Assembly (NCBI GenBank): GCA_009711825.1
Contig: VEMY01000033.1
Coordinates: forward strand, 1 to 51,282
Reading direction: 5' to 3'
From: Bacillota bacterium
GTDB taxonomy: Bacteria > Bacillota > Proteinivoracia > UBA4975 > VEMY01
Length of the DNA: 51,282 bases
The translations under genes and the position numbers were made by a program. Of this stretch, positions 26,937 through 51,282 are shown piece by piece (positions within the stretch are counted from its first letter, which is position 1; the number at the start of each line of letters is the position of its first letter). Below the pieces are notes generated by a model. The model did no database searches and was not told the DNA's origin. It worked only from the letters and a program-made list of their open reading frames with translations.

Positions 26937-27008
26937 TATCCCTTCGGTGTAGCCAAAAAGGCCTGCGCCACTTGGACCGGCCGCACCGGAACCCTAGGCG
27001 CACTTTCC

Positions 27009-27073
27009 CCGTAGTCAGGCAATTTACGGTTGCCTGGTAGATACTCCCGGGCCCTATCCCCAGGATTATACGG
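27009..27073 (-). promoter_or_regulatory. guanine (purine) riboswitch aptamer of the pur operon
   Basis: On the minus strand the sequence shows P1 (CCGTA / TACGG), the invariant TATAATC..GG.ATA.GGCCC core, P2, TCTACC, the P3 stem with ACCGTAAAT loop, and GACTACGG. The base equivalent to position 74 is C, which pairs with guanine or hypoxanthine, so it is a guanine-type rather than adenine-type aptamer. It lies between the promoter at 27094-27122 and the terminator at 26886-26936, a standard transcription-off switch. Confidence 0.95.
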
Positions 27074-27093
27074 CCAGTTCAATTTGTATCTCC

Positions 27094-27122: not shown

Positions 27123-27173
27123 CGCCAAATCCGAACAAAAATCAACAATCTACCAAAAACATTCGCCCACCGC

Positions 27174-27205
27174 TGCCCACCCGGGGACGGAGGTTCATTG
27201 CGCCA
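27174..27205 (-). repeat. REP-like palindromic element, copy 1
   Basis: Read on the minus strand it contains GAACCTCCGTCCCC followed by GGGTGGGCA; the left arm is degenerate (GCGCAAT). It lies 12 nt beyond the 3' end of the RAYT gene, inverted relative to copy 2 on the other side of that gene. Confidence 0.65.
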
Positions 27206-27216
27206 AATCAATTCGG

Positions 27217-27975
27217 CTAAGCCCTGCTAATTGTCCTGCGGCTGATAGCCAACATCGCCGCCAGCTCACTTTGGGTCAAAGTGGTCTGGTTTTTCAACTC
27301 CCTCAGCACGCTGTCCCGTAATTCTTTTTTAAGATCTCTGACATCGCCTGGTTTCAATCCGAATTTCTGGTTGAGAAAATCTTCAATCACCTGGTGTGGG
27401 TCAACAGTTTCCTCAGTTGAATCATAGTCAATAAATTTATCGTCATTTGCAGCATTGGTGTAATCCAATAACCGGATAATGCTATCCTCGCAATATGCCA
27501 TTAGCGGAGTCTTATTTATCAAGCTGTCAGGGCCCCTTTGACAGTAACTCTGAAAGCTACTCCAGGCAAAATCTCCTGGCCTGTTTGCAAGTCCGGCCTT
27601 GACTGGATTGTTGTGGATATAGCGTGCGCAGGCAAGATATTGAGATTCGGACGTAATGGCTTGGCTTCTATACCGGTCCTGAAAGAGATGGCCTATTCGC
27701 TCATACTTTTTATTAAAATAAATTGAATAACGGATACCGATACTCTTCATTACCAAGGAAAGTGGAGTATCAGTTTCCTTAAGTAGCAAATGAACATGGT
27801 TATCCATCAAACAAAAGGCATTCAATTCGAAGGGATACTTCTCTTTGGCCGCTTGCAATACGTCGAGATATTTGTGGCGGTCATTATCATCGCGAAACAA
27901 AACCATTTTGTTAATGCCTCTGGTCATTACATGATAATAGCCGGAAGGGCTGTGCTCCCTCGCCTGCCGAGACAC
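27217..27975 (-). CDS. REP-associated tyrosine transposase (RAYT, IS200-like Y1 family)
   Basis: This 252-residue single-strand HUH endonuclease has the metal motif HVH (about residues 60-62, in MDNHVHLLLKE), the family hallmark GHLFQDRYRSQAI, and catalytic tyrosine candidates in YLACARYIHNNPVKAGL (113 or 119). Unlike many RAYTs it has a C-terminal helix-turn-helix-like end (LTQSELAAMLAISRRTISRA). RAYTs mobilise or maintain REP palindromes rather than acting as insertion sequences. GTG 27984 lies too close to AAGGGG; GTG 27975 gives the usual SRQAREHSPSGYYHVMTRG start. It is flanked by inverted REP-like copies. Confidence 0.85.
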   Translation of the reverse strand: MSRQAREHSPSGYYHVMTRGINKMVLFRDDNDRHKYLDVLQAAKEKYPFELNAFCLMDNHVHLLLKETDTPLSLVMKSIGIRYSIYFNKKYERIGHLFQDRYRSQAITSESQYLACARYIHNNPVKAGLANRPGDFAWSSFQSYCQRGPDSLINKTPLMAYCEDSIIRLLDYTNAANDDKFIDYDSTEETVDPHQVIEDFLNQKFGLKPGDVRDLKKELRDSVLRELKNQTTLTQSELAAMLAISRRTISRA

Positions 27976-28051
27976 GGTTTTCACCCCTTAATACTTATTA
28001 TCGCAAAGCAACTCAGGCCATTCTCGCAGCTGTTGCTCATGAGGTCGAAAG

Positions 28052-28082
28052 TGCCCACCGAACCTCCGTCCCCCAATGGGCA
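28052..28082 (+). repeat. REP-like palindromic element, copy 2
   Basis: TGCCCA, then GAACCTCCGTCCCC, then TGGGCA: short inverted arms around the same 14-base core as copies 1 and 3. The preceding GTCGAAAG is shared with copy 3 at 50118. Its right arm abuts the pbuG terminator. Confidence 0.75.
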
Positions 28083-28112
28083 AAAATGCCCGGGCGTTTT
28101 GCCCGGGCATTT
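28082..28112 (-). terminator. intrinsic terminator of the purine permease gene
   Basis: Perfect 12-bp stem AAATGCCCGGGC / GCCCGGGCATTT with a 5-nt loop; on the minus strand it is followed by a further TT. It is 34 nt beyond the permease stop. Confidence 0.88.
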
Positions 28113-29609: not shown

Positions 29610-29675
29610 TACCCAATTAAAGTGTACGGCATTATATGCCGCCCTGAACATGGGCACAAATATCACGGGCATTTT

Positions 29676-29742
29676 CTCGTAGTCAGACAATTTACGGTTG
29701 TCTGGTAGAGACTTTCGGGCCATATTCCCGAATTTATACGAG
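29676..29742 (-). promoter_or_regulatory. guanine riboswitch aptamer of pbuG
   Basis: On the minus strand: P1 CTCGTA/TACGAG, the conserved core ATA.GGCCC, TCTACC, an ACCGTAAAT loop and GACTACGAG. The position-74 equivalent is C, so it is guanine-type. It is closely similar to the pur-operon aptamer, and the two should shut off synthesis and import together when guanine is plentiful. Confidence 0.95.
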
Positions 29743-29770
29743 TGCTGCGAATTATTTTAGCTACAGTAAA

Positions 29771-49684: not shown

Positions 49685-50117
49685 ACTTACTTGCCCCCTT
49701 CGATATCTATGTTAAAGAGACAGTTAACAATATGTTCGTCCAAATTGCTAAAATTCCTGTTTAATTATGGAAAGTTTTTGGTATTCAAAACAATCTTACC
49801 CTTCAGGAGCACAAAGGAGAGCTACAATTACTGCAAGACTTTCAGTAATAGCTTATCCCGAGGAATTGCGCGGTTCATGGAATGACTTGATTTCGAGCAA
49901 CTGGCGATAGATCATCGGGGCTTGCTTAATCAGCTTCTTTTGCCTTCGTTCTGCAAGTTACTACCTACATTCCCGGAATTTAAACGAGGGTTGATTCCAC
50001 ACCCAACGCAGTGTAGCGTGAATTCCCGTCCTTGCTGCTGCGCATGATTCGCCACACCCTGGGGGCAAGTAGCGGCCTAGACCAAAGCCTGCCATGCTGT
50101 CGAAGATTGTCGAAAAG
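49685..50117. other. intergenic stretch before the group II intron ORF
   Basis: No convincing gene is seen in 430 nt. If the intron is complete, its domains I-III should lie here, but I could not find a clear GTGYG 5' end, so the boundary is unresolved. The AT-rich first 100 nt may hold the promoter of the minus-strand permease. Confidence 0.5.
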
Positions 50118-50147
50118 TGCCCAGGGAACCTCCGTCCCCGGTGGGCA
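50118..50147 (+). repeat. REP-like palindromic element, copy 3
   Basis: TGCCCA, GGGAACCTCCGTCCCC, GGTGGGCA: same core and arms as the elements flanking the RAYT gene, including the preceding GTCGAAAAG. A second TGGGCAC at 50165-50171 offers an alternative pairing partner. It lies 5 nt before the maturase start codon. Confidence 0.7.
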
Positions 50148-50152
50148 GTTCA

Positions 50153-51282
50153 ATGGGAATCCATTGGGCACAAGTGGAACAGAACGTGAATAGGCTACAA
50201 TCCAGAATTGCTAAGGCAACAGTTCAGGGAAACAAAAACCGAGTCAAAAGGCTACAGCTGACCAACTCCTTTTATGCGAAGGCCTATGCGGTCAAGAAAG
50301 TAACCTCAAATAAAGGGAAGAACACCTCTGGAATAGACAAAAAGCTTTGGTCAACTTCGGCCTCGAAAATGAAAGCAGCCTTATCACTGACGAATAAGAT
50401 GTACAAAGCAAAACCCCTTAGGCGAGTTTACATTGAGAAAAAAGGCAAGAACAAGAAGCGACCGCTGGGAATCCCCACAATGTCTGACCGCGCAATGCAG
50501 ACACTCTATGCACTTGCTCTTGAACCAGTTGCTGAATCCACTGCAGACAACGTCTCCTTCGGTTTTCGCAAAGGCAGAAGTGCAAAGGATGCCTGTGAAC
50601 AGATATTTTGTGTGCTGGCGAGAAAGTGTTCTCCAACATGGATACTCGAAGGAGACATTAAGGGCTGTTTTGATAATATCAATCATGATTGGTTAAAACA
50701 GAACGTCCCCATGGATAAAAGGATAATGACACAATTCTTAGAATCAGGGTTTATTTACGAGGGCAATCTATTTCCTACGAGTAGCGGCTCACCTCAAGGA
50801 GGAGCTATCTCAAGTCTATATGCAAACATCACCTTGGATGGTCTCGAAAAGTTAATTCAAGATAAGTACCACAGAAACTCAAGAGGAAAAATTAAGAACC
50901 ATTTCCGAGCAAAAACTAAGGTGAATTTGGTGCGATACGCAGACGACTTTATCATCACCGCAAACACAAAAGAAACAGCAGAAGAGATTAAGGAGATTGT
51001 AAGCCAGTTCCTTAATACCAGGGGTCTTACGCTATCTGAAGAGAAAACCAGAATAACGCATATAGATGACGGTTTTGATTTCCTCGGATGGACATTTCGG
51101 AAATTCAAGGGGAAGCTCATCGTCAAACCATCAAAGGATTCAATAAAAACCCTTTTAAAGAAATGCTCCACCATTATTCTGAAAGAAGGAAAAGCTAGTA
51201 GTCAATCCGACCTTATCCGCAGGCTAAATCAAGTGATTAGAGGATGGTCTAACTATCACAAACATGTTGTGGCTAGCAAGGC
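50153..51282 (+). CDS. ltrA: Group II intron reverse transcriptase/maturase (partial, runs off right edge)
   Basis: The first 376 residues of an intron-encoded protein are visible. The RT0-like N-terminus (HWAQVEQNVNRLQSRIAKA, VKKVTSNKGKNTSGID), RPLGIPTMSDRAMQ, FGFRKGRSAKDA, the first catalytic Asp in LEGDIKGCFDNI, SPQGGAISSLYANI, the active-site YADD (262-265) and GFDFLGWTFRKF are in the correct order, and the thumb/X domain begins (VIRGWSNYHKH). It aids splicing and retrohoming of its intron. The frame is uninterrupted up to the edge. ATG 50153 is the likely start; upstream in-frame GTGs lie in the REP-like element. Confidence 0.92.
   Translation, partial: MGIHWAQVEQNVNRLQSRIAKATVQGNKNRVKRLQLTNSFYAKAYAVKKVTSNKGKNTSGIDKKLWSTSASKMKAALSLTNKMYKAKPLRRVYIEKKGKNKKRPLGIPTMSDRAMQTLYALALEPVAESTADNVSFGFRKGRSAKDACEQIFCVLARKCSPTWILEGDIKGCFDNINHDWLKQNVPMDKRIMTQFLESGFIYEGNLFPTSSGSPQGGAISSLYANITLDGLEKLIQDKYHRNSRGKIKNHFRAKTKVNLVRYADDFIITANTKETAEEIKEIVSQFLNTRGLTLSEEKTRITHIDDGFDFLGWTFRKFKGKLIVKPSKDSIKTLLKKCSTIILKEGKASSQSDLIRRLNQVIRGWSNYHKHVVASK

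Follow-up and report, generated by a model that had tools for sequence, protein, structure and literature searches.

A RAYT gene of subclass 2.1 type in a Bacillota genome, its dispersed inverted repeats, and a shared core with private pairing arms

The stretch of DNA analysed here (the window) is 51,282 nucleotides long and corresponds to the complete contig C33 of a Bacillota genome whose assembly has 77 contigs and totals 3.09 Mb. A RAYT (TnpA Y1) transposase gene lies in it between two inverted copies of a short repeat, termed family A, and a third copy adjoins a group II intron reading frame. The features referred to below are the following.

27174..27205, minus strand: downstream terminal inverted repeat of family A, a hybrid whose C-rich strand has TGGCGCA as its left and TGGGCA as its right arm
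27217..27984, minus strand: RAYT/TnpA Y1 transposase gene, 255 aa, with NHVH and YIHNNP motifs and a helical, possibly HTH-like, C-terminal domain
28044..28049, plus strand: GTCGAA, a 5' tag-like motif common before family A elements (strict tag-pattern count)
28052..28082, plus strand: upstream terminal inverted repeat of family A, TGCCCA, core, TGGGCA (arms 28052-28057 and 28077-28082)
49891..49951, minus strand: remnant of the 3' end of a transposase gene, 85% identical to sequences on contigs C2 and C60; the C2 ORF has rve, rve_2 and HTH_21
50016..50081, plus strand: remnant with similarity to the final part of lspA (80% identity, query 317-448)
50118..50147, plus strand: dispersed family A element (the third copy) with full TGCCCA and TGGGCA arms (50118-50123 and 50142-50147)
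50151..51282, plus strand: 5'-truncated group II intron fragment, an IEP reading frame without upstream intron RNA, running off the contig end

The identification of the gene as a RAYT in the first-pass annotation was confirmed by the curated family NF047646 (88.8 bits against a cut-off of 80), and PF01797 also matched the protein (58 bits). The AlphaFold model (mean pLDDT 91.9) showed five helices at residues 196-254, and the best match among solved folds was 4er8, TnpA_REP bound to a REP hairpin. The catalytic residues of the HUH and single-tyrosine motifs (N62, H63, H65 and Y122) were invariant in 34 aligned RAYTs, and the alignment placed FQ in the window protein at the position of WQ in E. 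coli TnpA_REP. The motifs NHVH, LFQDRY and YIHNNP (with N for the L of Y[IV]HLNP) and the length of 255 aa fitted the table given for TnpA Y1 subclass 2.1 (Quentin 2018, PMC6006769), for which the sections of that paper drawn on here likewise describe NHVH, FQ and Y-H-NP motifs and an extra C-terminal domain, and a length near 238 aa. By motifs, length and the extra C-terminal domain, as distinct from placement in a tree, the window RAYT thus appears to match subclass 2.1. None of the domains named for the subclass in the same paper (Bac_DnaA_C, HTH_23 and HTH_28) was matched in it; PF08279 reached 21.6 bits, below its cut-off of 25, and the RAYTs on contigs C5 and C75 gave no HTH match. The closest named relatives were mostly from Clostridia and other Firmicutes. 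The gene and its repeats are located between purE and permease-type purine riboswitch units, with one purine riboswitch ahead of purE (26992-27093, minus strand) and one ahead of a purine permease-type gene (29660-29761, minus strand), and where the permease gene ends a strong terminator-like inverted repeat (AAATGCCCGGGC/GCCCGGGCATTT, 28084-28112) directly adjoins the upstream repeat.

The three exact copies of the core GAACCTCCGTCCCC reported on first pass were all recovered by a scan of the window (27183-27196, minus; 28060-28073, plus; 50126-50139, plus), where about 0.0004 copies would be expected by chance (0.02 in the genome), and the opposite orientation of the two copies around the RAYT gene was borne out. 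TGCCCA and TGGGCA arms had been described on both sides of the gene; this is correct for the copy at 28052, but the copy at 27174 is a hybrid, with TGCCCA at 27174-27179 and TGCGCCA at 27199-27205 of the forward strand. A CGCCCA beside it (27164-27169) looks like an additional partial right arm, and the fold of this copy was no better than that of its own shuffles. The third copy is preceded by TGTCGAAAA at 50108-50116. Counting the core throughout the genome, as had been proposed, revealed an excess: with at most one mismatch, the 14-mer was found at 35 sites against 4 for the reversed-pattern control, and TCCCCNNNTGGGCA at 129 against 34. Within one mismatch of ACCTCCGTCCC there were 50 sites in the fetched loci, 33 with both arms (at most two mismatches) and 11 with neither. 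The arms paired at 6/6 positions in 21 of these 33 elements, and the left arm was GGCGCA in seven. The strict tag pattern was present before 12/33 elements, as compared with 1/33 and 2/33 further upstream and 0/33 downstream; the 5' tag GTCGA is at most a property of family A and its nearest relatives. Dense clusters of the family, with tandem copies and repeated right halves, were seen at L206 (G000:C8:49900-63500) and L197 (G000:C51:3000-5500). Some copies had long common left flanks, the similarity stopping sharply where the right arm ends. When neighbouring repeats are set aside, a shared left flank was seen in only two pairs (C8:60302/61070 and C33:50118/C34:14281) and a shared right flank in none, and one-ended movement of the elements is to be taken as a lead and not as a result.

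The genome contains two further RAYTs, 46% and 42% identical to that of the window, and no near-identical second copy of the window RAYT was found in it. Each of the three genes is flanked by a different inverted repeat with dispersed copies of its own: the flanks of the C75 RAYT have GGAGCA/TGCTCC arms and those of the C5 RAYT CCAAT/ATTGG arms, in both cases around GAACCGTCC. Two-armed elements among the fetched loci numbered 33 for family A, 23 for B and 37 for C, and the GAACCGTCCY core of families B and C occurred at 76 genome sites against 13 in the control. Where neighbouring B/C elements were no more than 110 bases apart (by picked core positions), the order was minus-plus in seven cases, tandem in four and plus-minus in none; the minus-plus order resembles the REP doublets of the literature. 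The proposal that a REP system is tied to the RAYT was therefore upheld as to the tie, by the core excess, the inverted copies and the two additional RAYTs with families, and had to be amended as to the type, which is that of TIRs and not of GTAG REPs. Present or recent activity of the system, also suggested on first pass, is a possibility at most.

Relatives of the window RAYT were present in 8/8 genomes of the order, none of which belong to the same genus, and a survey was made of 42 loci, 20 from the order and 22 from a 398-genome sample of the phylum, the latter being best-scoring hits, so that the sample leans to close relatives. The core GGGAC[AG][GT] pointed inward on both sides of the gene in 35/42 loci (36/42 if AGGAC is allowed). 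Near RAYT genes, 98 core sites were inward and 11 outward; far from genes the figures were 19 and 11. In seven loci (L131, L132, L134, which is partly masked, L135, L139, L223 and L235) the strict core was absent on one or both sides, L132 having the AGGAC variant. A contig scan gave 12 distant RAYT relatives outside this survey, in which a simple pattern revealed an evident core pair only in L111, where the pair reads in one direction, contrary to the inverted rule. In two other loci, L140 and L142, the core variant GGGGACAGTCCCC makes a nearly perfect palindrome through the core, and in L124, L125 and L126, which hold the closest RAYTs of other genera, TTTTCGACA, the reverse complement of the family A tag TGTCGAAAA, follows the repeat, at least its upstream copy, the arms and core of these loci being different.

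The arms around the core paired with each other and differed between families. The mean stem formed by an element's own arms was 6.03, against 4.18 for permuted arms and a permuted maximum of 4.57 (500 permutations of 95 core sites, with related loci counted as independent). The correlation of arm similarity with RAYT identity was small (Spearman 0.18 over 32 loci; 5/2000 permutations as high). A compensated change was seen in two related genera, in which the arms read AGACA/TGTCT (G034) and AAACA/TGTTT (G227), in the gene-flanking copies (L234 and L263) and in most of the dispersed copies read. By manual count, the ten dispersed sites of G034 had GACA before the core in 10/10 and TGTCT after it in 10/10, the nine of G227 had AAACA before in 7/9 and TGTTTG after in 6/9, as at its own RAYT, and the six of G251 had AGACA before in 6/6 and TGTCT after in 5/6. 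The G-rich strand folded slightly better in 25/34 TIRs and the C-rich strand in 7 (Wilcoxon 0.003; mean difference 0.5 kcal/mol; only loci with arm pairing of at least 5 bases), and we place little weight on a strand preference drawn from folding energies.

The abundance of the core was associated with the presence of the gene. At least five copies of the 12-mer GGGGACGGTTCT were found in 68/114 genomes with a relative of the window RAYT and in 17/284 without one (Fisher 8e-30), and after subtraction of three copies per RAYT in 48/114 and 17/284 (8e-17), p-values that are too small inasmuch as the 398 genomes are related. There was no GGGGACGGTTCT core in 15/114 RAYT-positive genomes; divergent or lost genes, or other core variants, could explain these genomes and the core-rich RAYT-negative ones.

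The third copy had been described as lying directly before the maturase start, with a possible link to intron insertion or intron RNA structure. The reading frame is that of a group II intron reverse transcriptase (TIGR04416, 338 bits), and its relatives, 73-85% identical to the window, become homologous at 50150-50151, 3 bases beyond the end of the repeat at 50147. The adjacency is thus real, but the intron is 5'-truncated there and its longest ORF starts inside the repeat, with a GTG at 50117 (an in-frame ATG follows at 50153). Three full-length relatives from three genomes (L240, L241 and L242) had D1-D4 and D5-D6 signals, and their approximately 614 nt before the aligned point were 84-87% identical to one another and 42-45% identical to the window, i.e. 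unrelated. In the full-length relatives the position taken up by the repeat in the window is filled by intron RNA, so the window intron has lost about 614 nt of its RNA; it also lacks the first residues of the protein and has a small deletion near the joint. A family A element was absent from the corresponding place in L240, L241, L242 and L245, which speaks against the repeat as a conserved part of the intron RNA, and an Rfam search of the junction gave no match. Nor could other intron copies in the genome be seen to carry the element at that place, as no second copy of the window intron was found. The lspA-like sequence before the third copy also precedes the family A element at G000:C34:14281, where the C34 gene is a Peptidase_A8 (70 bits), and the transposase remnant at 49891..49951 is one that we take to be of IS3 type. 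The surroundings of the third copy are a patch of broken mobile DNA, and the third copy itself is an ordinary dispersed family A element adjoining a broken intron, not a part of that intron.

An intron role for the repeat, as recognition site of the group II intron or as a piece of its RNA, which would connect REP sites to intron insertion, might still be argued from a second broken maturase piece (L079, G000:C50:4-331). No further group II piece was found in the genome, and this one has a family A element about 480 bases away; both pieces are therefore within 500 bases of an element, with a chance of about 1.6e-4 under uniform placement of some 39 elements. However, both are at contig ends among the debris of other mobile elements, a setting in which placement may not be uniform, and since the intact relatives have continuous intron sequence and no element at the place in question and the window copy is truncated, the link was rejected and we give it almost no credence. 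The repeats could instead be palindromes that serve the host in regulation or structure, such as terminators or sites for gyrase or polymerase, among which the RAYT merely happens to lie, as many elements are able to fold as hairpins and one adjoins the terminator-like repeat at 28084-28112. It is argued against by the separate stem of each RAYT within one genome, by the inward-pointing copies beside the gene and by the way core abundance goes together with the gene in the 398 genomes, and it seems very improbable. Rather less easily dismissed, though in our view unlikely, is that the gene with its two TIRs forms an ordinary insertion sequence moving as a whole, the dispersed elements being leftover ends or derived MITEs: the gene does lie between inverted ends at short distances, and several genomes have up to six or more RAYT matches. 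Against it, the two other RAYTs here are only 42-46% identical to the window copy and no near-identical one was found, each family of short elements has 23-37 fetched copies, and core-rich genomes with a single RAYT exist (G282, with 1 RAYT match and 111 cores).

We favour, with a probability of roughly 78%, a TIRtron in which a single-copy long RAYT of subclass 2.1 is flanked by two members of a family of short elements dispersed in the genome, on which it would act in trans. The sequences themselves establish how the locus is built, that the cores point inward, that the arms pair, that gene-flanking and dispersed arms match in several genomes, and that core abundance is associated with the gene. 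The kind of system is already known. The sections of Di Nocera (2013; PMC3733652) used here describe TIRYTs as RAYT-like genes between inverted repeats that are not GTAG REPs, with moderately abundant dispersed TIR families, often in dimers or clusters, and with a GGGGWSAS motif, to which the core found on both sides in 35/42 loci is related and from which the window core GGGGACGG deviates at position 7. In those sections some TIRs are variants of a small number of types, the rest have no relation to one another, and only some are self-complementary, whereas what was measured here is a rule of general validity, by which one core is framed by pairing arms that are private. The main text of that paper contains none of the words Firmicutes, Clostridi and Desulf.

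A classic GTAG REP system was rejected, since no shared GTAG/GTGG foot was present and the RAYT is a long one of subclass 2.1. The REPtron, in the parts of Nunvar (2010; PMC2817692) considered, is similar in its HUH transposase and cognate dispersed palindromes with inverted copies beside the gene, but the conserved part here is an internal core, and inspection by eye of 33 family A elements and the listed B and C elements revealed no shared foot 5' of the palindrome; the same parts place RAYTs meeting the authors' criteria only in gammaproteobacteria. The HUH/Y1 fold is also that of IS200/IS605 elements (IS608, ISDra2), from which the present system differs by its inverted-repeat flanks and extra C-terminal domain and by the lack of gene multiplication in the genome: a gene that multiplies with its ends is a trait of that family, and no near-identical RAYT accompanies the window copy. 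For subclass 2.1, the sections cited of Quentin (2018; PMC6006769) report no REP-like sequences by automatic or manual search, the automatic search having been confined to hairpins, long ones included, with GT[AG]G and a loop of 2-5 nt; in contrast, inverted and mostly hairpin-forming repeats were found here at most loci. Three things look new: the private-stem and shared-core rule as measured, how widely it holds in the phylum, and the existence of hairpin partners in a subclass for which none had been reported; a literature search, to which most subscription papers were out of reach, found no description of a private-stem rule in this phylum.

The elements of the favoured TIRtron consist of two parts, a core common to these transposases (GGGGAC[AG][GT].., whose other-strand reading in the window is AACCTCCGTCCCC) and mutually pairing arms that differ from one transposase to another. 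The RAYT may be an HUH endonuclease whose targets are the single-stranded hairpins of the family that belongs to it, and which in trans either copies its elements or moves them, with the core read by a conserved part of the protein and the stem giving cognate specificity. TnpA_REP cleaves single-stranded REP hairpins, and in the sections cited of Corneloup (2021; PMC8266576) the loop bases are essential in one REP group and only structural in another, the enzymes having co-evolved with their REPs. By this analogy, action of the RAYTs on hairpins of their own families is probable, and the combination of a conserved core and private stems would add another arrangement to those of the TnpA_REP groups, if the roles of the two parts are correctly assigned. 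It is a more doubtful idea, put forward tentatively, that the element carries a two-part address, in which a conserved surface, for instance that of the C-terminal domain, would recognise the clade-wide core and a variable surface the private stem, so that several transposases could coexist without cross-mobilising. Were this so, the difference between AGACA/TGTCT and AAACA/TGTTT would be a joint change of specificity in gene and repeats, and strand exchange within the core would have left its trace in the hybrid elements and the repeated right halves.

Most RAYTs are single-copy transposases whose maintenance calls for an explanation, and the large subclass 2.1 had been described as lacking any partner of REP type. 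Should its partners indeed be hairpins in which the stem is private and the core common, specificity would be directly testable in vitro by swapping stems and cores, and the three apparently separate pairs of RAYT and repeat in one genome would serve as ready controls.
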